In this document: positions 48,241 to 62,246 of the stretch, piece after piece
Numbering within the stretch: the stretch's first letter is position 1
Layout of the letters: each line of letters opens with the position of its first letter
Assembly (NCBI RefSeq): GCF_009729555.1
Contig: NZ_WODC01000006.1
Location: 62,001-126,000, forward strand
DNA from: Pseudodesulfovibrio alkaliphilus
Lineage (GTDB): Bacteria > Desulfobacterota > Desulfovibrionia > Desulfovibrionales > Desulfovibrionaceae
DNA length: 64,000 bases
Reading direction: 5' to 3'
Position numbers and translations under genes: made by a program
Notes under the pieces: generated by a model
Seen by the model: only the letters and a program-made list of their open reading frames with translations
What the model was told of the DNA's origin: nothing
The model's database searches: none

Positions 48241-50196
48241 TCAGCCCAGCCCCATGCCGGGACGCATGACCTGTCCGGTCAGGGAGGTTTCGTAGCCGCC
48301 CAGGCCGTTGATGGCCGCCTTGATGGCGTTCTGGCCGATGGTGGCGAGCAGGGCGGTGATGCGCGGGTCGTTCATGTGGGCGGTGGGGATGACCAGGTCG
48401 TAGCGCTCGCGGGCCAGGGGCACGAAGTCGAGACCAAGGGCCTTGGCCGCAGCGAAGATGCCCAGGCCGCAGGAGGCCGCGCCCGTGAGCACGTTCACGG
48501 CCACGGCCATGTGCGTGAACTCCTCGTTGTCGTAGCCGCGGACATCGGCCGGGGCGATGCCCGCTGTCTTCAGGTGATGGTCGAGGAGGATGCGGGTGCC
48601 TGCCCCGCGCTGGCGGTTGATGAGGCGCACGTCCTCGCGGGTCAGGTCCTCGACGCCCTGGATGGACAGGGGGTTGCCTTTGGGCACTATGAGTCCCTGA
48701 TGGCGGATGGCGAGGTTGACCACGGTGACATCCAGTTCCTTGAGATAGCGGGCAATGAAGGGGAAGTTGAAGTCGTCCGTTTCGGGGTCGAAGAGATGCG
48801 CTCCGGCGAACAGGGCGGAGCCGGCCTTGAGAGCGGTCAGGCCGCCCATGCTCCCGGCGTGGCTCGAGACCAGCCGCAGCGGCTGGGTCAGCCCCATCAG
48901 CTCGTTGGCCAGCATGTCCAGCGTGTTGTCGTGGCTGCCCACGTGGACCAGGACCCGGTCGAGTTCGGTTTTGGGCACCAGCAGTTCGGCGGTCACGGTT
49001 TCGCCCTCGTCAATGCCCTCGGACGCCTCGGGAATGTAGGCCACGGCCTGGGCCCGGGTCAGGGTGGTGATCATGCCCGCGCCCCGGGCCAGGGGGGCTG
49101 CCACGATGCGGCCTCCGATGCGTCCGGCCGCAAGGCGCAGGGCCTCGCGCATACCGGGTTTCGAGGGGGTCTTGCGGGCCAGCGTCACCTGGGCGGTGGC
49201 CCGCTCCGGCTCGGCCGCGCCCGTGAGCCAGGCCAGGATCGGGGCCAGCACCTTCTCAAGGCAGACCACGGCGCTGACCGGGTAGCCGGGCGCACCCACC
49301 AGCAGGCGACCGGGGTGGCCGCTACGTTCGTCGGTGACGGCCACCAGGGTGGGCTTGCCGGGCATGACCGAGATGCCGTGGACCAACACCCGCCCCACGG
49401 ACTCGAAGACGCGGCGGGTGTAGTCCTTGCTGCCAGCGCTGGAGCCAGCGCCCACGATGACCGCATGGTTGCCCGAGGCCAGCCCGTCGAGCACGGCCCG
49501 GTGCAGGGTCTCCTCGTCGTCAGGCACGGGCGGGGTGAAGCTCGCCCTGACCCCCCAGGAGGCCGCATAGGCCATGAATACCTGGGAGTTGGACTCGATG
49601 ACCTGGCCGGCGCGTGGCTCGGGCCTGTCGTGGAAGTCGAGCACCTCGTCCCCCGTGGGCACGAACACGGCCCGGACCTGTTCGCGTACCTGGACCTCGT
49701 AGATGCCTGCCGAGAGCAGGGCGCCGATGTCGCAGGGGGCGAGCTGGCGGAATTGAGGGATGAGCAGTTCGGTGGCCACGATGTCCTCGCCGATGCGGCG
49801 GACATGCTGCCAGGGAAAGGCCGGTGCGTCGATGAGGGCCGTGGCTTCATCCTTCTGGACCACGTTCTCGATCATGATTACGGCATTCATCCCCTCGGGC
49901 AGGGGATTGCCGGTGTTGACGAAGACGAATTGCGTTCCGTGGGCCAGAGAGACCGGCCGATCCTCGCGGGCGGCAAAGGTGGTGTCGGCGCGGACCGCAA
50001 TGCCGTCCATGGCCGCGGAGTGAAAGGTGGGCGACGAGCAGCGGGCGAAGATCGGCCCGGCCGTGACCCGTCCGGCCGCCTCGTGGGTGGGCACGGTCTC
50101 GGAAGCGATCAGGGCCTTGCGGTCGAGGACGGCCTTGGCGCGCGCCACGGCCTCTTCCACGGGGATGGTATCGAGATAGATGTTGCGTTTTGCCAT
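48241..50196 (-). CDS. Molybdopterin molybdotransferase MoeA fused to a PBP-like domain
   Basis: A 651-residue fusion. Residues 1 to about 405 are MoeA (SSPTFHSAAMDGIAVRA, NTGNPLPEGMNAVIMIE, ISVMPGKPTLVA, GAPGYPVSAVVCLEKV), which inserts molybdate or tungstate into molybdopterin. Residues about 425-651 are a periplasmic-binding-protein-like domain without a signal peptide (VHVGSHDNTLDMLANEL, INRQRGAGTRILLDHHL, GAASCGLGIFAAAKALGL), the type that binds molybdate-like ligands in regulators. The fusion is common in strict anaerobes. AAGGAG precedes the ATG at 50196. It may serve the FeMo nitrogenase indirectly, and formate dehydrogenases. Confidence 0.9.
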   Translation of the reverse strand: MAKRNIYLDTIPVEEAVARAKAVLDRKALIASETVPTHEAAGRVTAGPIFARCSSPTFHSAAMDGIAVRADTTFAAREDRPVSLAHGTQFVFVNTGNPLPEGMNAVIMIENVVQKDEATALIDAPAFPWQHVRRIGEDIVATELLIPQFRQLAPCDIGALLSAGIYEVQVREQVRAVFVPTGDEVLDFHDRPEPRAGQVIESNSQVFMAYAASWGVRASFTPPVPDDEETLHRAVLDGLASGNHAVIVGAGSSAGSKDYTRRVFESVGRVLVHGISVMPGKPTLVAVTDERSGHPGRLLVGAPGYPVSAVVCLEKVLAPILAWLTGAAEPERATAQVTLARKTPSKPGMREALRLAAGRIGGRIVAAPLARGAGMITTLTRAQAVAYIPEASEGIDEGETVTAELLVPKTELDRVLVHVGSHDNTLDMLANELMGLTQPLRLVSSHAGSMGGLTALKAGSALFAGAHLFDPETDDFNFPFIARYLKELDVTVVNLAIRHQGLIVPKGNPLSIQGVEDLTREDVRLINRQRGAGTRILLDHHLKTAGIAPADVRGYDNEEFTHMAVAVNVLTGAASCGLGIFAAAKALGLDFVPLARERYDLVIPTAHMNDPRITALLATIGQNAIKAAINGLGGYETSLTGQVMRPGMGLG

Positions 50197-50231
50197 GGCT
50201 TTCTCCTTGCTGTCGCCGCCCGTGCGGTTCC

Positions 50232-51431
50232 TCAATACTGGAATTCTCCGTCCTTGTAGATGATCAGTTCGCTGCCGTCGGCCAGGGTGGCGGTGACGGT
50301 CTTGCGTTCGGTGCTGACCAGATCCCAGTGCAGGGCCGAGTCGTTGAAGCCCAGGTGGTTCTTTCTGTCCTTGTCCAGGGTGGACTGGTCGCCCGCATAG
50401 GTGTCGGCGTAAGAGGCGCCAACGGCCACATGGCAGTTACCCTGGTCGCCGCCGAAGTTTTCGTCGAACAGGGTGTTGGCCATGAAGGCGGTGATCCGGG
50501 AGAAACGGCGGTCGGTCAGGGAGAACTCGCCCAGCCGGTTGGCTCCTTCGTCCAGGGTCAACTGCTTGGCCACGAACTCGCCGCCCACCTTGGCCTCGGT
50601 CTTGACTGCCACGCCCTTCTCAAAGGTCAGACGCACTCCCTCCACGTAGTTGCCGGAACGGTAGGAGGGCTGGTCCGCGTAGTAGACTCCCTCGGTGCCG
50701 CGCCAGTCGGGCGAGAGGAATATCTCGAAGCTCGGTATGTTGTGGCCCGAGACGCCGAGCCAGCGACGGTCCTGCCCCGGAGTCACGGTCAGATCGGTGT
50801 TTTCGGAGGTGATGCGCAGCCGTTCGATGAGCAAACCGTTGAGCCAGGCCTTGACCTTTTCGGCCTCGGTGAAGATCTCTGCCCACTTGGCCGAGGGATC
50901 GTCGTGGTCCAGGAAGCAGGCGTCCACCACCTGGGCCTTGAATTCGGCCATGGTCAGCCCGGCCGCCTCGGCCATTGCCTCGGTGGGATACAGGCACAGG
51001 GTCCAGCCGAAGTCGCCGGATTGCTCGCGCTGCTCCATGATGTCGCGCATGAACTTGCGGGCCACGGCGGCCTGACCTATCCGCTTGGGGTCCACGTCCT
51101 TGAGGTGGGTCAGGGAGGCGGGGGCGATGAGGGAGATGAGTCCGTTTGCGCTCTCGACCAGTTCCCGGTCTCCGGCCGGAACAGCCGTGAGTTGGGCATC
51201 GGTTCCCCTGCCGTAGAAGGAAAGGTCCATGGCCGGGGTCATGTTTTGACGGGCCACAGGGTTGAGTCCTTTTTCCATGAGCATGTCGAAGACGGCCTCG
51301 GCCAGGGGCAGGGCCGGGGCGTCGAAGCGGAGCAGGATGGTGTCGCCGGGGGCATAGGGATTGGTGCGGGCGGTGGTCAGCCCCCACCACAGGGTACGGG
51401 CGTATCTTTCCAATTCGTTTCGGTTGAACAT
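50232..51431 (-). CDS. M29-family metallo-aminopeptidase
   Basis: A 399-residue aminopeptidase of the thermophilic AmpS/AmpT family. Metal-ligand regions are recognisable: Glu in NIPSFEIFLSP, Glu in RLGEFSLTDRR, His in GNCHVAVGASY and the NDSALHWDLV block that carries the final His and Asp. AAGGA lies 7 bases before the ATG at 51431; the longer frame upstream runs through the ferredoxin gene and is a shadow. It is 35 bp upstream of the MoeA gene on the same strand. Confidence 0.9.
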   Translation of the reverse strand: MFNRNELERYARTLWWGLTTARTNPYAPGDTILLRFDAPALPLAEAVFDMLMEKGLNPVARQNMTPAMDLSFYGRGTDAQLTAVPAGDRELVESANGLISLIAPASLTHLKDVDPKRIGQAAVARKFMRDIMEQREQSGDFGWTLCLYPTEAMAEAAGLTMAEFKAQVVDACFLDHDDPSAKWAEIFTEAEKVKAWLNGLLIERLRITSENTDLTVTPGQDRRWLGVSGHNIPSFEIFLSPDWRGTEGVYYADQPSYRSGNYVEGVRLTFEKGVAVKTEAKVGGEFVAKQLTLDEGANRLGEFSLTDRRFSRITAFMANTLFDENFGGDQGNCHVAVGASYADTYAGDQSTLDKDRKNHLGFNDSALHWDLVSTERKTVTATLADGSELIIYKDGEFQY

Positions 51432-51550
51432 GGGTATCCTTGTCGGTGTTGAGGGTTGAGGTCCGAGGGCAGGATAAACGACTAGGCCGTCAGTCACAAC
51501 ACCCGAAAGTGCGTCGGGGACGACTGGGGAGTGAAATGGGTTTTCATGTC

Positions 51551-51640
51551 TTGACACAGGGCTGGCTTGAATATATCTGCAACTCGTGCCCGGCCTTTCG
51601 GGTCGGTAGCGTGCAATCATCCGTTGCGCCAAGGCGCAAC
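51551..51640 (+). promoter_or_regulatory. Promoter and leader hairpin of the ferredoxin gene
   Basis: TTGACA (51551-51556) and TATCTG (51574-51579) are 17 bases apart, overlapping a TATATC. A leader palindrome GTTGCGCC-AA-GGCGCAAC (51623-51640) follows, about 50 bp before the ATG. The 258-bp gap holds nothing else evident. Confidence 0.45.
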
Positions 51641-51689
51641 AAACCAGTCCCGTGAGACGCGGGCATCCCAAATTATTCTGGAGGGAACA

Positions 51690-51878
51690 ATGGGCTACAC
51701 TATCACTGTTGATCATGACAAATGTACCGGCGACGGCGAGTGCGTTGATGTCTGTCCCGTCGAGGTCTACGAGCTTCAGGACGGCAAGGCCGTTGCCGTG
51801 AACGAGGAAGAGTGCCTCGGTTGCGAGTCCTGCGTTGAGGTCTGCGAGGCCGACGCCATCACCATTGAAGAGAACTAG
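51690..51878 (+). CDS. Small two-cluster ferredoxin with CxxDxxC first site
   Basis: A 62-residue bacterial-type ferredoxin. The second cluster motif CLGCESCVEVCE is a normal CxxCxxCxxxC. The first, CTGDGECVDVCP, has Asp where the second Cys would be (CxxDxxCxxxCP). In Desulfovibrio africanus ferredoxin III and in Pyrococcus furiosus ferredoxin this change gives an interconvertible [3Fe-4S]/[4Fe-4S] site. GGAGGG precedes the ATG. It is monocistronic, with its own promoter and terminator, and is likely a main low-potential electron carrier. Confidence 0.95.
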   Translation: MGYTITVDHDKCTGDGECVDVCPVEVYELQDGKAVAVNEEECLGCESCVEVCEADAITIEEN

Positions 51879-51901
51879 TCCCAAAGGTTTTGCCACGGCT
51901 C

Positions 51902-51939
51902 CGGGAGCGGCGGGTCACCGTTGCTCCCGTTTCCTTTTT
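51902..51939 (+). terminator. Intrinsic terminator after ferredoxin gene
   Basis: CGGGAGC and GCTCCCG form a 7-bp stem with a 14-base loop, followed by TTTCCTTTTT. Confidence 0.8.
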
Positions 51940-52030
51940 CGCCATGGCCGGGAACGGGGTATCTTCTCGCCAGGCGCCCAAAACCGGCGCCAAGGTTCGT
52001 CAGCCGGGACCGTTTGACCCGTCTGCACGG

Positions 52031-52058
52031 TTGACGATCCCGATTCACGACTTATCCT
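52031..52058 (+). promoter_or_regulatory. Promoter of the YkgJ-TPR gene string
   Basis: TTGACG (52031-52036), a 16-base spacer and TATCCT (52053-52058), about 55 bases before the ATG at 52119. Confidence 0.45.
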
Positions 52059-52118
52059 TACGGGCACGATGTCGCATTGCGACTGGGGCCAGACCTGTCG
52101 GCCAGACGAGGAGCATGT

Positions 52119-52958
52119 ATGGCGCTGGATTTTTCCGAATATTTCAAGAGGTATGAGGCCATCGTCGCCGAGGTTGAGACGGTCTTTGACAAATTCGAGA
52201 CCGAGATGGGCGATCTGGTAAAGTGTGGCAAGGGATGCAGCGACTGCTGCCATGCCCTTTTCGACATCACTCTGGCTGAGGCCATCTACATCAACCACAA
52301 GTTCAACGAACTTTTCTCGGGGCTTGAGCGCAGCAATGTTCTCAATCGCGCCGACACGGCCGACCGCCAGATACACAAGCTCAAGCGCAAGGTTTTCAAG
52401 GCGAGCCAGGAAGGCCGCCCGGCCTCGGAAATCCTCCTGGAAGTCTCGCGGGCCCGGGTGCGCTGCCCCATGCTCTCTGACGACAACCTCTGCGTTATGT
52501 ATGAGCACCGTCCCATCACCTGCCGTCTTTACGGTGTGCCCACCTCCATCGCGGGCGAAGCCCATACCTGCAAACTCTCGGGCTTCAAGGGCGGCGAAAA
52601 ATATCCCACGGTCAACATGGATATCATTCTTGACCGGCTCATCGGCATTGGCCGCGACCTGCAAAAGGGCATCGGCAGCCGGTACAAGGAGCTGGGCGAC
52701 ATGCTCGTCCCCCTGTCCATGGCTCTGGTCACGGATTACGACGAGGAATACCTCGGCGTGAATGTCCCGGACAAGGTCGTGGGCAGCGACAGGCAGACGG
52801 CCGCGTCTGCGACCAAGGCCCCGGCACCCCGGCCGATCACGATCAAGGCACCGGGCGGAGCGGGGGACGCCTGCTCGTCATGCACTGAAAGCAAATCCGC
52901 CTGCGAATCCTGCACCAGCAACACCATTGTTCTCGGCGGGGGCGAGGGGCAGGCATGA
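52119..52958 (+). CDS. YkgJ-family cysteine cluster protein
   Basis: A 279-residue protein with the YkgJ zinc/iron-chelating cluster: CGKGCSDCCHALFDI near residue 35, then CPMLSDDNLCVMYEHRPITCRLYG near 125-150. A proline/alanine-rich linker leads to a short second Cys group at the C-terminus (CSSCTESKSACESC), not usual for the family and perhaps a second metal site. AGGAG lies 7 bases before the ATG. The stop overlaps the next start (ATGA). The function is unknown. Confidence 0.85.
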   Translation: MALDFSEYFKRYEAIVAEVETVFDKFETEMGDLVKCGKGCSDCCHALFDITLAEAIYINHKFNELFSGLERSNVLNRADTADRQIHKLKRKVFKASQEGRPASEILLEVSRARVRCPMLSDDNLCVMYEHRPITCRLYGVPTSIAGEAHTCKLSGFKGGEKYPTVNMDIILDRLIGIGRDLQKGIGSRYKELGDMLVPLSMALVTDYDEEYLGVNVPDKVVGSDRQTAASATKAPAPRPITIKAPGGAGDACSSCTESKSACESCTSNTIVLGGGEGQA

Positions 52959-53320
52959 GCGAATCCAACATCTATGAGGAGTTCACGCCCGAGCAGATGG
53001 CCGAACGCAAGCAGTGGATGTACGACAAGATGTCGCCACGGCGGCGCAGGTTCGTGGACCGCGTGGGCTTTGAAAACTGGGACCCCTTCGCGGCCCCCTT
53101 CGAGCCCATCGACATTCGTCGCGATCGGACCGGCTTCACCTCCGACCATCTGACCCAGCTCTTCATGCGCCACTGCGGCAAGCGCGGCAACCAGGAGTAT
53201 GTGGACGCGGTCAACGAGTTCAATGTCATGCTGGTGATGAATTTCGAGAAGGTCAGACCTGTCTTCGAGTATTGCCTCTGGTATGCGGAACATCTGAAAA
53301 AACACGGCGTCAAACCGTAA
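52955..53320 (+). CDS. Conserved hypothetical protein
   Basis: A 121-residue, soluble, mainly helical protein rich in Arg and aromatic residues (MSPRRRRFVDRVGFENWDPF, DHLTQLFMRHCGKRGNQEYVDAV). No known domain is recognised. It overlaps the YkgJ gene by 4 bp and is 14 bp upstream of the TPR gene, so all three are translated from one message. Confidence 0.8.
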   Translation: MSESNIYEEFTPEQMAERKQWMYDKMSPRRRRFVDRVGFENWDPFAAPFEPIDIRRDRTGFTSDHLTQLFMRHCGKRGNQEYVDAVNEFNVMLVMNFEKVRPVFEYCLWYAEHLKKHGVKP

Positions 53321-53334
53321 TGAAAGGATAGGCC

Positions 53335-53955
53335 ATGGAAAAATTCGACAATCTCGACGAGTATATCGCCGACCTCAAGGCCAAGCTGAAGAAAAACCCC
53401 CAGTGCGGCAACAGCCATTACAACCTCGGCGTTGCCTATCTGTCGCGCCGGGACTTCATGGAGGCCGAGCGCGAATTTCTGGATGCCGTTGCCCATTCGC
53501 CGCGTCTGGCCGAAGGATATGTCCAGCTTGGCGGTATCGCCATGCAGCGGGGCGATCTGCAAAGCTGTCTGAATTACAATGTTCAGGCCACCCAGCAGCG
53601 TCCCTTCTTTGCCGTGCCCTGGGGCAACATTGGCTTTGTCCAGCTCCAGCTCGGCGATACGGACAACGCCCACAAGGCCCTCAAGAAGGCGCTCAAGCTG
53701 GACCCCGAGTTCGTCCAGGCCCAGGCCACCATGTCCAGCCTCTTCATCACCATCGGCGATTACGAGGAAGCGGACAAACTGCTCAAGAAGATCCTGGAAA
53801 AGTACCCTAACTTCGGCCCGGCCTGGAACAACAAGGCCCTCATCCACGCGGCCAAGGAGGAATGGGCCGATGCCGCCACGTGCATGGTCCGGGCCGAGGA
53901 AAACGGTTTTGAAGTGCCCGAGGATTTCAAGAAGGAAGTCGAGGCCAACAACTGA
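53335..53955 (+). CDS. Tetratricopeptide repeat protein
   Basis: A 206-residue protein with about five TPR units, including NSHYNLGVAYLSRRDFMEAE, AEGYVQLGGIAMQRGDLQSC, AVPWGNIGFVQLQLGDTDNA and FVQAQATMSSLFITIGDYEE. It has no signal peptide, so it is likely a cytoplasmic adaptor. AAAGGA precedes the ATG. A terminator follows at 54002-54032. Confidence 0.9.
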   Translation: MEKFDNLDEYIADLKAKLKKNPQCGNSHYNLGVAYLSRRDFMEAEREFLDAVAHSPRLAEGYVQLGGIAMQRGDLQSCLNYNVQATQQRPFFAVPWGNIGFVQLQLGDTDNAHKALKKALKLDPEFVQAQATMSSLFITIGDYEEADKLLKKILEKYPNFGPAWNNKALIHAAKEEWADAATCMVRAEENGFEVPEDFKKEVEANN

Positions 53956-54001
53956 CCCGTGCCCGGCCGCCCTTGCGGACCGAAGAGAAATGCTTATCAT
54001 T

Positions 54002-54032
54002 AGGAGGATCGCGGTGTGCGGTCCTCCTTTTT
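54002..54032 (+). terminator. Intrinsic terminator after the TPR gene
   Basis: AGGAGGATCGC-GGTGT-GCGGTCCTCCT, an 11-bp stem with one G-U pair, followed by TTTT. Confidence 0.8.
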
Positions 54033-54078
54033 CATGGGTGCGGCCCGGCCGCGCCCTGACCCCGTCATCGGAGGCGCG

Positions 54079-54768
54079 ATGTCCAGATTCCGCCAAGTGA
54101 AGCGCGAGGTGCGGTCCATTCTGGCCCTTGAGAACTGGCAGGAACGGCTGGAGGGGCTGGAACAATGGCCTGCGGGAATCCTTGTGCCCCCTTTGCTGTC
54201 GCTGCGTCTGGATCGCGACGAGGCGGTTCGCTGGCATTCGGCCACGGCCTTCGGGCTGACAGCGGCACGCATGGTCGAGGCTTCCATGGAAAAGGCCAGG
54301 GTGTTGATGCGTACCTGCATGTGGTACATGAACGAGGAGTCGGGCAACCTTGGGTGGGGCATTCCTCATTTCATGGGCGAGGCCATGGCTGTGAGCGAGC
54401 GTATCGCCAGTGAATACCACAAGATACTCGTCTCTTACATCTTCTGCGACGAGGCGTGCGACGGCAATTACCTTGAGCATGCCGAGCTGCGGCGCGACGT
54501 GTTCTGGGGTCTGGCGCGGCTGGCCGAGGTCCGGCCCGGGCTGGTGGTCCACGGGGAGCGTTTTTTCACGGCCGCATTGAACGAGGACGACGCCTTCAGC
54601 CGGGCTCACGCGGCCCGCACCCTCGGCCTCATCGGAGCCGACGCGGCCCGCGGAGCGTTGGACGGGTTGTGCGCAGATTCCGCGTCCGTACGCACCTATC
54701 TCGATCGGGAACTGGTCGACACCACCGTCGGCAGCATGGCGGCCGAGGCGCTGGAATCCCTGGGTTGA
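54079..54768 (+). CDS. HEAT-repeat-like conserved protein of sulfate reducers
   Basis: A 229-residue soluble protein of helical repeats. HEAT-like units are RLDRDEAVRWHSATAFGLTA, HAELRRDVFWGLARLAEV and FSRAHAARTLGLIGADAARG. From memory it resembles the conserved Desulfovibrio family named after DVU0298; this was not checked. A cysteine pair lies in IFCDEACDG. GGAGG lies 5 bases before the ATG at 54079. It has its own message after the TPR terminator and is convergent with the DsrE-like gene. Confidence 0.82.
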   Translation: MSRFRQVKREVRSILALENWQERLEGLEQWPAGILVPPLLSLRLDRDEAVRWHSATAFGLTAARMVEASMEKARVLMRTCMWYMNEESGNLGWGIPHFMGEAMAVSERIASEYHKILVSYIFCDEACDGNYLEHAELRRDVFWGLARLAEVRPGLVVHGERFFTAALNEDDAFSRAHAARTLGLIGADAARGALDGLCADSASVRTYLDRELVDTTVGSMAAEALESLG

Positions 54769-54805
54769 GGAAAAGGCCACCCAGACCGGACGGCCTTGCC
54801 TGTCT

Positions 54806-55126
54806 CTAGAAGTTCATGATCCTGTCGGCCTTGCGCATTTCGTCGTAGAGAAACTGCATGTTGGAGAGTCTGACCAGGTCTGATTCATCCACGCCGTGGA
54901 TGGCCATGCACTTGCCTCAGGCAACGAGGACGCCCTCGCTCAAGCTGAAGACCTTGGCCTGCTCTGCGATGGGAAAACGGTTGCTGTCTCCGGCTGCGAG
55001 ATCCACGGCCGGGCCGTTGAGAAAGAGGGTCACATCCTCCCCTGCGTTGAGCAGGAAATTGCCGTACCGTACGGCGTTCCACTTTACTTCCGGGTCCGTG
55101 CTGGTCAGGGTAATGAGTATTTGCAT
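54806..55126 (-). CDS. DsrE-family selenoprotein (in-frame UGA read as selenocysteine)
   Basis: Read through one in-frame TGA (54917-54919), the gene encodes 106 residues. Residues 1-69 are the beta-alpha start of the DsrE fold (MQILITLTSTDPEVKWNAVR, DVTLFLNGPAVDL). Residue 70 is the UGA codon, then GKCMAIHGVDESDL and the usual DsrE ending DEMRKADRIMNF. The UGA falls on the first Cys of the family CGxC motif, giving U-G-K-C. A hairpin starts 14 bases after it. The downstream 36 codons keep coding composition. AGGAG lies 9 bases before the ATG. DsrE proteins handle sulfur as persulfides; a Sec would make a reactive redox site. Ordinary annotation would cut or miss this gene. Confidence 0.88.
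54886..54902 (-). promoter_or_regulatory. SECIS-like stem-loop after the UGA codon
   Basis: In the mRNA CATCCAC-GGC-GTGGATG forms a perfect 7-bp stem. Its loop begins 21 bases after the UGA and starts with G, within the known range for bacterial SECIS elements (roughly 16-37 bases, small apical loop with G near its start). Folding was judged by eye. Confidence 0.65.
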
Positions 55127-55277
55127 CAGCCGTAACTCCTTTTGTTTTTCATTGAAAATATCAATAACAGCGAGGCGCGGCAAAGGCAACTCCGGCCTCT
55201 TGGGGCCGGGCGTGACAGGCCGTGGGTGGGCAAAGGCGGCGTCCGCGTAAAAAAGGCAAAAAATGTCTGCCCCGTGC

Positions 55278-55306
55278 TTGACAACCGGACAGGTCGCGGA
55301 TAGATA
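55278..55306 (+). promoter_or_regulatory. Promoter of tRNA-Val
   Basis: TTGACA, a 17-base spacer and TAGATA, ending 20 bp before the tRNA. It is a near-consensus sigma-70 promoter. Confidence 0.8.
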
Positions 55307-55326
55307 TTCACTCCGCTTCAACAAGA

Positions 55327-55401
55327 AGGCGCGTAGCTCAGGGGGAGAGCATTTGCTTGACGTGCAAAGGGTCGTGGGTTCAAATCCCTCCGCGCCTACC
55401 A
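55327..55401 (+). tRNA. tRNA-Val (GAC anticodon), CCA encoded
   Basis: The cloverleaf is complete. Acceptor AGGCGCG pairs with CGCGCCT; D-arm is GCTC/GAGC; anticodon stem TTTGC/GCAAA encloses loop TTGACGT with anticodon GAC; the T-loop is TTCAAAT; the 3' end is ACCA. One T-T mismatch lies in the T-stem. Confidence 0.95.
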
Positions 55402-55413
55402 GAGATCCCCGGG

Positions 55414-55445
55414 AAGGGAGGCCATGAGCCTCCCTTTCATTATTT
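55414..55445 (+). terminator. Terminator of tRNA-Val
   Basis: AAGGGAGGC-CATGA-GCCTCCCTT, a perfect 9-bp stem followed by TCATTATTT. Confidence 0.75.
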
Positions 55446-55483
55446 AGACGGCCCGCGCCACGGCGCGGGGAAGGAGCCTGACA

Positions 55484-57421
55484 GTGCAGATCGAAGTCTC
55501 CGGGAACCGGATCGACGTGGCCGACGGCGCGTCGTGCGCCGATGCCCTGCAACAGGGCGTCTCCAAGAAGCAGTTCAAGAACGTGGTGGCCGCCCGGTGC
55601 GGTACGACCGTCCTTGACCTGACCGCGCCCGTTCCCGGCACCTGCACTGCCCTGGAGCCCGTCTTCGCCGACAGCGGGGAAGGGCTCGACATCATCCGCC
55701 ACTCCACCGCCCACCTCATGGCCGAGGCGGTCAAGAAGCTCTTTCCCACGGCCAAAGTGACCATTGGCCCGGCCATCAAGGACGGCTTTTATTACGATTT
55801 CGATTTCGAACGCCCCTTCACTCCCGAGGACCTTGCGGCCATTGAGCAGGAGATGCAGCGTTCGGTGGGTGCCAACAAGGATTTTTCCTGCCGGACCATG
55901 AGCGCCGATGAGGCGCGGGATTTCTTTTCGGCCATGGGGGAGACCTACAAGGGCGAACTCATCGACGATCTGGGCGGCGACACCTTCACCGTCTATTCCC
56001 ATGGCGAGTTTGCGGATTTGTGCCGGGGGCCCCATGTGCCGCGCACTGGTATGCTCAAGGCTTTCAAGCTGCTCTCGGTGGCCGGAGCCTACTGGCGCGG
56101 CAGCGAAAAGAACAAGCAGCTCCAGCGTATCTACGGCACGGCCTGGTCCGAGCCCAAGGCCCTCAAGAAATACCTCGACAGGATCGAGGAGGCCAAAAAG
56201 CGCGATCACCGCAAGCTGGGCGCCCAGCTCGACCTCTTCTCCACCCACGAGGACGTGGGCGGCGGCATGATCCTGTGGCACCCCAAGGGCGGGCTGATCC
56301 GGTCCATTCTTGAGGACTTCGAGCGCAAGGAGCACCTCAAGCGCGGCTACCAGATCGTCCAGGGGCCGCTCATCCTCAAGCGCGAGTTGTGGGAGAAGTC
56401 CGGCCACTACGACAACTACCGCGAAAACATGTATTTCACCGAGATCGACGAGCAGGGCTACGGCATCAAGCCTATGAACTGTCTCTCGCACATGCTCATC
56501 TTCAAGCGCAAGATACAAAGCTACCGCGACCTGCCCCAGCGCTATTTCGAGCTTGGCGTGGTGCATCGGCACGAGAAGTCAGGCGTGCTCCACGGCCTGA
56601 TGCGCGTGCGCTCCTTCACCCAGGACGATGCCCATCTCATCTGCCGCCCGGACCAGCTCCAGGAAGAGATCATCGGCGTCTTCAACTTCGTGCGCGACAT
56701 CATGGACCTCTTCGGCTTCACCTTTGAGGCCGAGATTTCCACCCGGCCGGAAAAGTCCGTGGGTACCGATGCCGACTGGGAGCTGGCCACCGCCGCACTG
56801 AAGGACGCCCTCGACGCGCTGGGCAAGCCCTATGCCATCAACGAGGGCGACGGCGCCTTCTATGGACCCAAGATCGACATCATCCTGCGCGATTCGTTGG
56901 AACGGCGCTGGCAATGCGCTACAATCCAATGCGATTTTACCTTGCCAGAGCGGTTTGACTTGGTATATGTCGGCGAGGACGGTGAGCGCCACCGGCCGGT
57001 CATGCTGCATCGGGTCATTCTCGGCTCCATCGAACGGTTCATAGGTGTGCTCATTGAGCATTTCGCCGGGGCGCTGCCTGTGTGGCTTGCTCCGGTACAG
57101 GTGCGTCTGTTGAACGTGACAGACGCCCAGGCCGAATTTACGGAGAAAGCACGGGCCTATCTGGCGGGCAGGGGGATTCGCGTCGAGGCGGACACCCGCA
57201 ACGAGAAGCTCGGATTCAAGGTGCGGGAGGCACAGGTCGAAAAGATCCCGTACATGTTGGTGGTCGGCGACAAAGAGGTGGAGGCCGGGTGCGTCAATAT
57301 TCGCTCTCGCGATGGCGAGGACCCCGGTTTGGTGACACTGGAAGAGGCCGCGCAGCTCATTCTCGACGCTGCCCAGGCCCCTTTCAAACGAGGAGGCATG
57401 CGCTATAGCTTTTCGGGGTAA
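55484..57421 (+). CDS. thrS: Threonyl-tRNA synthetase
   Basis: A 645-residue enzyme starting at GTG 55484 with AAGGAG 7 bases upstream. The domains are in standard order: TGS (1-60), editing domain ([15 protein letters not shown], with [10 protein letters not shown]), catalytic core with the zinc-binding Cys in [11 protein letters not shown], motif 2 region [23 protein letters not shown] and C-terminal anticodon-binding domain. It is the first gene of the thrS-infC-rpmI-rplT-pheST cluster. No T-box was seen in the short leader. Confidence 0.97.
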
Positions 57422-57953
57422 CGACCGCCGCGGCCAGAAAAAGCAAGATCTGGTCCGGCGCAATGAGCGGATTCGCATCCCCAAGGTGCGGGTTGTGGAT
57501 GAAGACGGCGAGCAGCTGGGTGTTCTCGACACCCGTGACGCGCTTGATCGCGCCAGGGAAAAGGGCCTTGACCTGGTCGAGGTCGCGCCCAATGCGGACC
57601 CGCCGGTCTGCAAGATCATGGATTACGGCAAATTCAAGTACCAGCAGCAGAAAAAGCTGCAGGAAGCCAAGAAGAAGCAAACCGTAATCAAGATCAAGGA
57701 AGTCAAGTTCCGGCCCAAGACCGATGAGCACGACTACCAGACCAAGCTCGGTAAAATTTTGAAATTCCTGGACGACGGCGACCGCTGCAAAGTCACCGTC
57801 TTCTTCCGGGGACGCGAGATCGTCCACAAGGACCGCGGGCTCAAGATGCTTGAGCGGGTCGTGACCGATACTGCGGAAATCGCCAAAGTCGAGAGCAGGC
57901 CCATGTCAGAGGGACGGACTATGACAATGATGCTTGCTCCTGTGAAAAAATAG
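57405..57953 (+). CDS. infC: Translation initiation factor IF-3, probable AUA start
   Basis: IF-3 keeps the 30S subunit selective for initiator tRNA. The N-domain ([23 protein letters not shown]) and C-domain ([37 protein letters not shown]) are complete only if the frame is extended upstream. The GTG at 57486 would give 155 residues and cut off the N-domain helix. Going back, the only plausible start is ATA 57405, with AGGAGG (57391-57396) 8 bases before it, giving 182 residues, close to E. coli IF-3 (180). E. coli infC starts at AUU, and rare starts allow autoregulation. It overlaps thrS by 17 bp. Confidence 0.88.
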
Positions 57954-57996
57954 TCGAGACTTGCAAGGGACACGCTCCCTTTCCAAGGAGGATACG

Positions 57997-58194
57997 ATGC
58001 CCAAGATCAAGACCAGACGCGCTGCCGCCAAGCGGTTCTCCAAGACCGCGACCGGCAAGTTCAAGCGTCGCAGGAAGAACCTGCGGCACATTCTGACCAA
58101 GAAGAACGCCAAGCGGAAGCGTCGCCTGGGCCAGTCCACCACGGTGGACAGCACCAACATGAAGGCGGTTCGCCGCCAGCTGCCCAACGGTTAG
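57997..58194 (+). CDS. rpmI: 50S ribosomal protein L35
   Basis: A 65-residue basic protein with the normal L35 sequence ([40 protein letters not shown]). AAGGAGG lies 6 bases before the ATG. It lies between infC and rplT as in most bacteria. Confidence 0.97.
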
Positions 58195-58228
58195 TTCGTT
58201 TCAGGCCGCGAGCCGGGTGCGTTCTTCA

Positions 58229-58252
58229 TGAATTCCGGGTGGCCGGGATTCA
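58229..58252 (+). repeat. Hairpin in the rpmI-rplT gap
   Basis: TGAATTCCGG-GTGG-CCGGGATTCA forms a 10-bp stem with one G-U pair in the 175-bp gap before rplT. No U-run follows. It may be part of an L20-binding leader, as L20 represses its own operon in other bacteria. Confidence 0.35.
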
Positions 58253-58369
58253 ACGCATCAGGCCGGAGACGGTCGGAAGCGAAGTGTGAATTCGTAAACA
58301 ATTCAAAGCAATCCGCCTCGTCGGGGGAGTCCGTCCGGCCCGGGAGGTATTAAGAGATGGAGGTTTGAC

Positions 58370-58723
58370 ATGAGAGTTAAACGCGGCGTCGCCGCCAAGA
58401 AGCGTCACAAGAAATATCTCAAGATGGCCAAGGGCTACCGCGGAGCCGGCAGCCGCCTGTACCGCACTGCCAGGGAGCGGGTAGAGAAGGCCCTGTGCCA
58501 CGCCTACCGCGACCGCAAGGCCAAGAAACGCGAGTTCCGCAAACTGTGGATCATGCGTATTAATGCCGCCGCCCGCATCAACGGCATGTCCTACAGCCGC
58601 CTGATGGACGGTCTGAAAAAGGCCGGGATCGAGCTGAACCGCAAGGTGCTGGCCGATATGGCCGTGCGCGATCCCCAGGTGTTCGCGAAAGTCGCAGAGG
58701 CCGCCAAAGTCAAGGTGAGCTAG
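58370..58723 (+). CDS. rplT: 50S ribosomal protein L20
   Basis: A 117-residue protein of normal length and sequence ([60 protein letters not shown]). It organises 23S rRNA early in 50S assembly. GGAGG precedes the ATG. The stop is 2 bases before the pheS start. Confidence 0.97.
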
Positions 58724-58725
58724 AC

Positions 58726-59778
58726 GTGAGTGATGTATTGAAGTCCTTCCTGGAAGGACTCGACAGCCTGGCCCGGGATTGCGAATCGCGCAAGGGCCAG
58801 GCTTGTTCGTTGAAGGAGCTGGAGGAGCTGCGCATCGAGTTCCTCGGTCGCAAGGGCAGGCTGGCCCAGTCCATGGGCCAACTCGGCCGTCTGGACGGCG
58901 AGGCCAAGCCCGCTGGCGGCAGAAAGGCCAACGAAGTCAAGCAGCGCATCACCGCGCTGCTCGACTCGTGGCAGGACGAGCTTGACCGCGCCGAGACCGA
59001 CCGCACCCTGTCCAGGTTTGATCCCACCATGCCCGGACGCAGACCCTGGGCCGGCTCGCTTCATCCCGTTACCCTGGTCATGGGCGAAATATGCGATGTG
59101 CTCACCGGGCTCGGTTTCGAGCATGCGGCAGGGCCTGAGGTGGAAAACGACTGGAACAATTTCGAGGCCCTGAACATTCCGCCTGAGCATCCGGCGCGAG
59201 ACATGCAGGACACCCTTTACGTCTCCGAGCGCATCGTGTTGCGCACCCACACCTCGCCCATGCAGATACGGAGCATGCTCAAGCGCCAGCCGCCGTTGGC
59301 GGTCATCGCGCCCGGCAAGGTCTACCGCCGCGACTCGGACCTGACCCACACCCCCATGTTTCACCAGATCGAGGGGCTGCTGGTGGACCGCGACGTGTCC
59401 ATGGGCGACCTGCGCGGCACCCTGACCGCCTTTGTCCGCCAGCTCTTCGGGGCAAATACCGAGGTGCGCTTCCGGCCGAGCTTCTTTCCCTTTACCGAGC
59501 CCAGCGCCGAGGTGGACATCTCCTGCGTCATGTGCGGCGGACAGGGGGCCAGGGACGGCGCAGCCTGTCGCGTGTGCAAGGGCACGGGCTGGGTTGAAAT
59601 CCTCGGGTGCGGCATGGTTGATCCCAATGTCTTCAAGTCCGTGGGCTACGATCCCGAGGTCTACACCGGGTTCGCCTTCGGCCTGGGCGTCGAGCGGGTG
59701 GCCATGCTCAAATACGGCATCGGCGATCTGCGCATGTTCTTCGAGAACGATGTCCGCTTCCTCGAACAGTTCGCCTAG
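58726..59778 (+). CDS. pheS: Phenylalanyl-tRNA synthetase alpha subunit
   Basis: A 350-residue subunit starting at GTG 58726. It has the N-terminal coiled coil, then class II motifs: [40 protein letters not shown], motif 2 [22 protein letters not shown] and motif 3 [19 protein letters not shown]. An unusual [20 protein letters not shown] segment gives two CxxC pairs, a zinc site seen in many bacterial PheS proteins. Confidence 0.97.
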
Positions 59779-59837
59779 CCCGGCCTTGCGGGTCGGTGCT
59801 GACCGTGTATTAACTTCTCATCGACAACGGTAGTGCA

Positions 59838-62246
59838 ATGCTTGTCAGTCTAGATTGGTTGCGTGAATTCGTGCCCTTTGAGGGCGAACCCCAGGCCCTG
59901 GGCGACCGGCTCACCATGCTCGGCCTCGAGCTCGACGGCATCCACGATCCCTTTGAGGCCGTGAGCGATCTGGTGGTGGGCCATGTGGTCGAGTGCGGAC
60001 CGCATCCCGAGGCGGACAAGCTCTCGGTCTGCCGCGTGGACGTGGGCGACGAGGTGCTCGATATCGTCTGCGGAGCGCCCAACGTGGCAGCCGGACAGAA
60101 GGTTCCGGTGGCCAGAGTGGGCACCACCATGCCCGGCGGGCTGAAGATCAAGAAGGCCAAGCTGCGCGGCGTCCCGTCCAACGGCATGATCTGCTCCGAG
60201 CGCGAGCTGGGCTTTTCCGACGATCATGAAGGCATCTGGGTGCTCGACAGCGCCCTGAAGCCCGGCATCCGGCTGACCGATGCCCTGGGTCTGGAGCGCG
60301 TGGTCTTTGATTTCGACATCACGCCCAACCGGGCCGACTGTCTTTCCATTCTCGGCTTTGCCCGCGAGACGGCCCTGGCCTTTGACCTGCCTCTGACCCT
60401 GCCAGCCCTCGACCTTGTCGAAGCGGGTGGCAACGCGGCCGACGAGGTGCGTATCGTCATCGACGATCCCGAGCTGTGCCCGCTCTACAACGGGCGTATC
60501 CTGCGTGGCGTGACCACGCGCAAGGGGCCGGACTGGATGCGATTCCGCCTCCTGGCCCTTGGTCAGCGGCCCATCAGCAACATTGTTGACTGCACCAACT
60601 ACATCATGTTCGAGCTGGGCCAGCCCCTGCACGCTTTTGACCTCGACCTGATCGAGGGCGGCACCATCCGTGTCGCGCCGGCCACGGACGGCATGCGCTT
60701 CACCACCCTGGACGGCCACGAGCGCACCCTGACCGCGGCCGACCTGCTCATTTGGGACGGGGTCAAGCCCGTGGCCCTGGCGGGCGTCATGGGCGGACTC
60801 AACTCCGAAATGCACGACGGCTCCACCAATGTCCTGCTCGAAGCAGCGATATTCAGGCCAGGCACCATCCGCAAGACCGCTCGCAGGCTCGCGCTGCCCT
60901 CGGACGCCTCCTACCGCTTCGAGCGCGGGGTGGACCAGGTCATGAACCGTTTCTGCCTTGACCGCGCAGCGCAGCTCATGGCCGAAACCTCGGGCGGCTC
61001 GGTGGTCTCGGGCGTGACCAGCGCCGAACCCAAGCCCTGGCGCGACCGCACCCACATCTATCGCCATGATCGCTGCATGCGGCTGCTCGGCCTTGATCTG
61101 GAGCCGGAGTTCGCCAGGAAGGTCTTCACCCTCGAAGGGTGCGGCGTGGACGACAGCGATCCTGCCTGCTGGACCGTTTCCTCGCCCTCGCACCGGCTCG
61201 ACCTGGAGCGCGAGGTGGACCTGTACGAGGAAGTGGGCCGTGTCTACGGGCTGGACCGGATTCCGGCCGTGCTGCCTCGGGTGGCCAAGTCGCTGGAGGG
61301 CATTGTCTCTGGCGAGACCGAGTACGGCTTCATCGGCCGGGTCAAGTCCTGGGGTGCGGGAGTGGGCCTCAACGAGGCCATCAACTACAGCTTCGTGGGC
61401 GCCGACGATCTCGACCGCCTGGGGTTGCCCGCACAGGGGCGCGTGTTCATCGCCAACCCTTTGAGCGAGGAGCAGAACGTCATGCGTACTGCCCTGGCCC
61501 CGGGTCTGCTCAATACTCTCAAACATAATCTTTCCAAGGGAAACAACCATATCCGCGTCTTTGAGGTGGCCAAGCGGTTCGTGGCCGACCCAGAGTCGGA
61601 CACCGAAACGCGAGAGCACTCGGGTCTGGGCATTCTGCTCTATGGCCCGCGCCATGCGGCCGAGTGGCCCTGGCAGGGCGGAGACGCGGACTATCTCGAC
61701 CTCAAGGGGCATGTGGAACATCTGGTGCAGAGCCATCTCAAGCTTTCCGCTCCCCAGTGCGCTCTGGCCGGTGAGCATCCTTTCCTCAGTCCGTGCGTGG
61801 AGGTGCGGGTGGAGGGTCGCCTTGTGGGCGTTATGGGCCGGGTTCGCGAGGAGATGGCCGACTTCTATCATGCCCGCAAAGAGGTCTGGCTGGCGGAACT
61901 GGATCTCGACGCACTGCGCGAGCTGTCCGCGGCCCACAGGATCGGGTTCTCTCCGCTGCCCGTGTTCCCGCCCAGCCGCCGCGACGTGACTGTCATCGGT
62001 CCCACCACCCTCAAGGCCCAGGCCATCCGCGAGGTCATCGAGGGAGTGGGGGTGGACATTCTGGAATCCGTGGAGCTGGTGGCCGAGTTCGTGCCCCAGG
62101 ATCAGCAGGAGGGTCGCGAGGAGCGCAACCTTTCCTTCAGGCTGACCTATCGCCACCCGGCCCGGACCCTCAAGGACACCCAGGTGGACAAGGAACACGC
62201 CAGGATTCTCGACGCCCTGACATCCGCCCTTCCGGTTCGGTTCTAA
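59838..62246 (+). CDS. pheT: Phenylalanyl-tRNA synthetase beta subunit
   Basis: An 802-residue subunit with all expected parts: tRNA-binding OB domain (40-150, VGHVVECGPHPEADKLSVC), B3/B4 editing domain, B5 domain (about 400-470), catalytic-like core (SWGAGVGLNEAINYSFV, NPLSEEQNVMRTALAPGLL) and C-terminal anticodon-binding FDX domain (FPPSRRDVTVIG). The ribosome site is weak (GGTAG), but no better start exists. A terminator follows. Confidence 0.97.
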   Translation: MLVSLDWLREFVPFEGEPQALGDRLTMLGLELDGIHDPFEAVSDLVVGHVVECGPHPEADKLSVCRVDVGDEVLDIVCGAPNVAAGQKVPVARVGTTMPGGLKIKKAKLRGVPSNGMICSERELGFSDDHEGIWVLDSALKPGIRLTDALGLERVVFDFDITPNRADCLSILGFARETALAFDLPLTLPALDLVEAGGNAADEVRIVIDDPELCPLYNGRILRGVTTRKGPDWMRFRLLALGQRPISNIVDCTNYIMFELGQPLHAFDLDLIEGGTIRVAPATDGMRFTTLDGHERTLTAADLLIWDGVKPVALAGVMGGLNSEMHDGSTNVLLEAAIFRPGTIRKTARRLALPSDASYRFERGVDQVMNRFCLDRAAQLMAETSGGSVVSGVTSAEPKPWRDRTHIYRHDRCMRLLGLDLEPEFARKVFTLEGCGVDDSDPACWTVSSPSHRLDLEREVDLYEEVGRVYGLDRIPAVLPRVAKSLEGIVSGETEYGFIGRVKSWGAGVGLNEAINYSFVGADDLDRLGLPAQGRVFIANPLSEEQNVMRTALAPGLLNTLKHNLSKGNNHIRVFEVAKRFVADPESDTETREHSGLGILLYGPRHAAEWPWQGGDADYLDLKGHVEHLVQSHLKLSAPQCALAGEHPFLSPCVEVRVEGRLVGVMGRVREEMADFYHARKEVWLAELDLDALRELSAAHRIGFSPLPVFPPSRRDVTVIGPTTLKAQAIREVIEGVGVDILESVELVAEFVPQDQQEGREERNLSFRLTYRHPARTLKDTQVDKEHARILDALTSALPVRF

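Follow-up and report, generated by a model that had tools for sequence, protein, structure and literature searches.

The dsrE-like gene and its product

The window analysed here is the whole 64,000-nucleotide stretch of the Pseudodesulfovibrio alkaliphilus genome presented above, and the gene under study lies on its minus strand together with the following features:

54806..55126, minus strand: predicted dsrE-like selenoprotein gene of 106 codons plus stop (ATG 55126-55124, TAG 54808-54806)
54917..54919, minus strand: in-frame UGA predicted to be read as selenocysteine (residue 70), at the first position of a U-G-K-C motif
54886..54902, minus strand: putative bacterial SECIS hairpin, CATCCAC-GGC-GTGGATG, with seven Watson-Crick pairs and a GGC apical loop at 54895-54893
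55136..55140, minus strand: AGGAG ribosome-binding site, 9 nt before the ATG of the dsrE-like gene, read by eye
54773..54797, minus strand: possible terminator, AAGGCC ... GGCCTT then TT, directly after the stop codon of the dsrE-like gene, by eye only

A consensus scan found no sigma-70-type promoter near the gene, and the possible terminator was absent from the output of the scan, which was limited to loops of 3-8. When the gene was translated with TGA as selenocysteine (U), the frame from 55126 to 54806 was open throughout, with a single TGA at codon 70 and no further stop inside, as a preliminary description of this DNA had proposed, and the motif around codon 70 of the window protein read U-G-K-C. 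The same description had stated that the standard code would yield a product of 69 residues, and the frame indeed stops after residue 69 under that code, which makes this gene a clear example of one cut short by it.

The Pfam DsrE profile (PF02635) matched residues 11-106 of the 106 with 35.4 bits (cut-off 22.7, E 1.4e-8), and alignments of 22 and 50 homologue rows both spanned all 106 residues, so that the homologues do not all end at residue 69. NCBIfam profiles matched the window protein only at E 0.1, a search of the PDB by sequence gave nothing useful, and Rfam models run on 50000-60000 returned a tRNA and three low-scoring matches only. An AlphaFold2 model, computed from 50 sequences (49 of the 74 loci from named genomes described below plus the window protein), had a mean pLDDT of 91.4 and placed the end of a strand (66-70) at residue 70, with a helix coming next. 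Searched with Foldseek, this model matched E. coli YchN best (1jx7; E 1.2e-5, TM 0.82 by query length) and also matched DsrE/DsrF-like structures. Overall, the profile, the model, the structural matches and the full-length homologues bear out the proposal that the residues on both sides of the UGA make one complete DsrE-fold protein, and the predicted product of 54806..55126 is a free-standing protein of that fold.

Hairpin, relatives and selenocysteine machinery

The preliminary description had placed a 7-bp hairpin with a G-first loop 21 bases downstream of the UGA. The hairpin itself and its loop, of 3 nt with G as the first base, were recovered, and the distance holds for the apical loop, which begins 21 nt after the UGA, but not for the edge of the hairpin, since the stem begins 14 nt after it. 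The hairpin lies within the constraints for bacterial SECIS elements given in a section of one publication (loop of 3-9 nt, stem of 4-16 bp, G in the first two loop positions, spacing of 16-37 nt, minimum free energy of -7.5 or lower; PMC13188914), with folding energies of -9.3 kcal/mol for a 28-nt piece and -13.7 for 52 nt. Compared with shuffled sequences these energies gave z values of -1.56 (28 nt) and -0.17 (52 nt), which is not clearly more stable. In all six frames of the window, 605 of 1788 TGA stops were followed by at least 36 open codons. A comparable hairpin, defined as at least 7 Watson-Crick pairs with a loop of 3-14 nt, G in its first two bases and a start 13-34 nt on, was present downstream of 23 of the 1792 TGA trinucleotides in the window, and just one of these 23 sites had the exact spacing and loop length of this hairpin, namely the codon-70 UGA, which itself meets the definition. 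As evidence for a selenoprotein, the window sequence alone is therefore weak and not convincingly beyond chance; it is the comparative evidence from relatives that settles the case for the predicted selenoprotein.

The search covered 148 genomes, the window's own among them; 42 had a match to the gene and 39 of these had one with an in-frame TGA, although two of the 39 (G048 and G054) did so through a more distant group with a UGVC motif and one (G111) only through a truncated copy; the other three (G057, G066 and G129) had stop-free, more distant CGTC forms. In 395 genomes drawn from the phylum a match was found in 80, and TGA was present in 68 of the 94 match rows by our own count, for which the rows with a locus were translated. 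A scan of named genomes gave 74 loci from 93 pattern matches, including Pseudodesulfovibrio, Solidesulfovibrio, Nitratidesulfovibrio, Humidesulfovibrio, Desulfohalobiaceae, Desulfobulbaceae, Desulfobacula and Desulfosarcina. The fetched loci comprised 153 matches, 124 of them distinct, and 113 of the 124 rows were retained in a tree with many weak forks. No relative turned up in two scans of viral contigs. Since the TGA is common to dozens of genomes, a sequencing error at this codon was ruled out.

TGC (Cys) stood at the selenocysteine codon in a close orthologue, L087 from Desulfovibrio sp. OttesenSCG-928-A18, and in a deeper relative, L156, in agreement with the earlier suggestion that the UGA takes the place of the first Cys of the motif. 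L087 has a broken hairpin in which the stem Val codon is GTA, and L156 has part of the stem left behind its TGC codon. The tree required at least 3 changes between selenocysteine and Cys. Behind the UGA, dS exceeded dN in all seven computable of ten comparisons with relatives (for example dN 0.059 and dS 0.17 for L005), values which are rough because the stretches are short.

We also noted several peculiarities among the relatives. Two truncated copies, L048 and L050, are without the N-terminal part and keep the UGA and the hairpin. The UGVC motif marks a second DsrE selenoprotein group with a shorter frame (L101 at 7110, L056 and L058), and its L101 copy shares a contig with a UGKL copy (L052, at 6790). 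Near-identical blocks bearing the gene occur twice in two genomes (L017/L063 in G002, 99.9% over 3.3 kb; L028/L062 in G049, 99.7% over 2.7 kb); the G002 block recurs in G017 (L015) and G033 (L016), and integrase- or transposase-like ORFs were seen by eye near the duplicated blocks.

The hairpin was followed through 109 distinct sequences, the window included, from 114 TGA rows with enough sequence; three UGVC-group rows, L154 (which has a TAG inside and other changes) and the divergent L163 were left out. L163, L056 and L058 each form a hairpin of their own, and that of L101 at 7110 has 5 bp. In nearly every sequence the distance from the UGA to the apical loop is likewise 21 nt. A complete 6-bp core was present in 104 of the 109 sequences, with 649 of 654 pair cells standard, whereas shuffling the arms among the 109 gave on average 42.7 complete stems and at most 60 in 10,000 shuffles. 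When equal arm pairs were counted once, 17 of 21 were complete, whereas shuffling gave 6.6 on average and 14 at most. Compensatory arm pairs included ATCCAC/GTGGAT, CTCCAC/GTGGAG, CTTCAC/GTGAAG, GTCCAC/GTGGAC, GCCCAC/GTGGGC and CTCCGC/GCGGAG. The stem Val codon was GTG in 107 of 107 cases, compared with 234 of 610 for the other Val codons of the same genes.

The exchanges are visible in the protein. The residue pairs that flank the HGV core were Ile-Asp (38), Leu-Glu (35), Leu-Lys (19), Val-Asp (6) and Leu-Gly (4), with Ala-Gly, Phe-Glu, Ile-Asn and Ile-Gly once each, and the outer pair was broken by Ile-Glu (2) and Val-Glu (1). The five incomplete cores were two sequences with Ile-Glu, one with Val-Glu, one with Leu-Glu in which Glu is GAA, and one with Glu for Val. 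These pair and residue counts include shared ancestry; on the tree, the outer core pair required at the least 12 and 15 changes for its two sides. A lineage-aware test on independent pairs found only 3 and 2 well-supported pairs, too few to give the test the power to reach significance. Taken across the aligned sequences, the compensatory changes in the hairpin alter the encoded residues, so that the predicted SECIS element visibly shapes the protein.

A separate alignment of 38 hand-picked sequences (37 distinct) gave the same picture: 99.2% of 259 pair cells were standard compared with 90.0% after shuffling, the covariation score was 0.285 compared with 0.118 in shuffles and was reached by none of 500, and this score fell below 0.10 once the partner was slid by 1 to 3 bases. 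Two of the five covariation measures did not go beyond shuffles, with 3 pairs changed on both sides (reached in 48 of 500) and 8 further pair types (reached in 67 of 500). Overall, the relatives of the dsrE-like gene give a clean signal of SECIS covariation.

All components for selenocysteine insertion were found in the window's genome above their cut-offs, namely selA (607 bits), selB (368), selD (330) and tRNA-Sec (82), and ARAGORN called the last as tRNA-SeC(tca); the selA, selB, selC and selD set for which the preliminary description had suggested a check is thus present in full. The selD gene of this genome (G000:C4:110800-111729, L041) is itself interrupted by one in-frame TGA and is therefore probably a selenoprotein gene as well; SelD is known as a selenoprotein.

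SelB exceeded its cut-off in 130 of the 148 genomes, and 36 of the 39 that have a TGA match were among them, so its co-occurrence with the dsrE-like gene is uninformative. The three exceptions were G048, in which selA and tRNA-Sec are present, G064, which is 64% complete, and G042, a 3-contig assembly of 95% completeness in which selA, SelB and tRNA-Sec were not found and whose copy of the gene (L032) retains its UGA as well as a perfect hairpin. The Cys forms are not explained by a lost machinery, since SelB is still present in both genomes with the Cys form, G539 (L087; 314 bits, with tRNA-Sec at 79 bits) and G293 (L156). In the tree, L032 and L087 are sister rows with opposite states at the selenocysteine codon. 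Given the covariation, the conserved part behind the UGA and the complete machinery, we infer with near certainty that the dsrE-like gene encodes a selenoprotein.

The fourth motif residue and possible partners

Among 111 distinct TGA-bearing members of the family, five of which are truncated or broken copies (L048, L050, L057, L147 and L154), 67 had Cys as the fourth residue of the motif, 34 had Leu, 9 Ser and 1 Arg. The relatives thus include UGKL, UQKS, UGKS and UGKR variants, and in 44 of the 111 the selenocysteine is kept and the Cys that ends the published UxxC motif is missing, which suggests that selenocysteine can act alone as a sulfur carrier in this family. The fourth residue changed at least 5 times on the tree, with its many weak forks. 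In the supported clade of 52 rows that holds the window, the Cys was kept in 51, so it may matter there. The passages of the literature considered here do not discuss loss of the second Cys in DsrE-like selenoproteins, and we make no claim that it is unpublished; it offers a testable point on what selenium does in a sulfurtransferase fold of anaerobic sulfur metabolisers.

Gene order gave no common partner. When 744 ORFs around 72 loci were compared all against all, no shared neighbour was seen in the 25 largest clusters, the largest of which consisted of copies of the gene, of frames antisense to it and of what by eye were histidine kinases and ABC ATPases, and no shared partner emerged among the 147 nearest same-strand ORFs, many of which are chance frames. 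Among the ORFs of 50000-60000 we saw by eye no dsrE-, dsrF- or dsrH-type neighbour of the kind expected for DsrEFH or TusBCD, and no sel gene was seen by eye beside the dsrE-like gene in the window. The same genome contains a stand-alone frame of TusA size (76 codons) and a YedF-like TusA-DsrE fusion, both of which are possible partners of the dsrE-like protein; neighbours vary by locus, and any partner named here is a putative one.

Individual loci had neighbours of interest. On the minus strand of L166 (G393), at 767-2713, three genes follow one another, namely a DsrE gene with CGTC, another with UGVC, and a flavin oxidoreductase that by eye is like sulfide:quinone oxidoreductases, an arrangement that is a lead for a sulfur-carrier role. 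In L062 (G049), an ORF lying 61-832 bases upstream, by eye similar to siroheme sulfite/nitrite reductases, stops some 60 nt short of the selenoprotein gene, and in L140, L145, L146 and L154 the gene has an ilvH-like ORF on one side and an ilvC-like ORF on the other, both judged by eye.

Proposed function and known systems

No tested function of the DsrE-like selenoprotein family is reported in the literature passages covered. We lean, by a modest degree, towards a free-standing DsrE-fold sulfurtransferase or sulfur carrier with selenocysteine in its active site. Sec70 would replace the single catalytic Cys of DsrE proteins and accept sulfane sulfur as Sec-Se-SH, or a thiosulfonate, and the sulfur would then be passed on to a partner thiol, for instance on TusA or DsrC. 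Cys73 would assist in releasing the sulfur but, since many relatives are without it, would not be central to the chemistry. Loading with thiosulfonate has been described for the Cys protein DsrE3A (PMC4175335, in the part considered), and for the DsrEFH type II of cable bacteria the conserved Cys67 of DsrE is given as the sulfur-transfer residue, with TusA as the donor (PMC13293266, likewise in part). Since one residue performs sulfur transfer in DsrE, we favour a carrier of sulfane sulfur over a redox pair of selenocysteine and Cys. A bolder version of the carrier, which we entertain but doubt, is that the selenol, needing no resolving Cys, shuttles sulfane sulfur as Sec-Se-SH from one sulfur-metabolism protein of Desulfobacterota to another, the SECIS element having forced paired residue changes around the HGV core; if true, this would be a use of selenocysteine unlike the usual Sec-Cys redox pair.

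The alternative that survives best, though we consider it unlikely, also takes the product as a selenoprotein, in which Sec70 and Cys73 would form a thioredoxin-like UxxC redox pair reducing disulfides or peroxides. Published tables give UxxC as the family motif and one lists the family among thiol-dependent redox proteins (PMC1088965, PMC13188914, both in the parts considered), and the U-G-K-C of the window protein, like the frequency of Cys in the family and above all in its own clade, is in keeping with such a pair. The replacement of this Cys by Leu, Ser or Arg, repeatedly on the tree and with the selenocysteine retained, argues against it and for the sulfur carrier.

Quite improbable is an idea of our own, that the protein is a selenium carrier with SelD or a thiol as the recipient. 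As to such a role, the one connection with selenium in the literature considered concerns the related YedF, which is associated with selenium genes and for which a part in selenium-related redox processes has been proposed (PMC5322559), and the presence of a YedF-like gene in the same genome fits this idea. The absence by eye of an adjacent sel gene in the window and of a shared neighbour elsewhere speaks against it, as does the patchy distribution of the gene, which is present in 10 of 35 same-genus relatives compared with 33 of the 35 for SelB and is thus not needed for selenocysteine synthesis. That the UGA is a true stop, leaving a truncated protein of 69 residues or a decaying gene, is extremely improbable, for the frequency of long open stretches behind TGA stops in the window and the existence of truncated relatives such as L048 and L050 are outweighed by the conservation of the part behind the UGA over the family, the covarying hairpin and the complete machinery, on which the pseudogene was rejected.

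The carrier that we favour can be set beside several known systems. E. coli YchN has the same fold with 19% identity to the window protein and is not known to be a selenoprotein. YedF is a fusion of TusA and DsrE with a CGxC motif in its DsrE domain and ties to selenium genes (PMC5322559, in part), whereas in the window protein only DsrE was matched, with no N-terminal TusA/SirA domain, and the YedF-like gene of this genome is a separate one. DsrEFH type II, from cable bacteria and sulfate reducers, has one catalytic residue, Cys67, and typically occurs with reductive DsrAB (PMC13293266, in part); it is a three-gene complex that uses Cys, whereas the window gene stands alone and is predicted to use selenocysteine.

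The closest counterpart is the published DsrE-like selenoprotein, which is alike in its Pfam02635 domain, the selenocysteine at the first position of UxxC and the bacterial SECIS element (PMC1088965, PMC1794560, in the parts considered). According to the sections available, such proteins were described with UxxC from two Sargasso Sea sequences in 2005 (PMC1088965), listed for Desulfovibrio vulgaris in 2006 (PMC1794560) and included in the tables of a 2022 and a 2026 review (PMC9312934, PMC13188914), and the relevant passage of the D. multivorans genome paper gives five selenocysteine genes with no DsrE among them (PMC5109826). The preliminary description was thus right that the family is not new, and the gene adds a member to it. 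The comparison with the published protein, whose reference is WP_014524487.1, draws on its description; close relatives from Nitratidesulfovibrio records (L072 and L078) have the gene. The Global Ocean Sampling survey distinguished two families, DsrE 1 and DsrE 2, both given as UxxC in the passage considered (PMC2398784), which, set by description beside our UGKC/L/S and UGVC groups, may or may not correspond to them. The published motif is UxxC, whereas many of the relatives found here are UGKL, UQKS, UGKS or UGKR.
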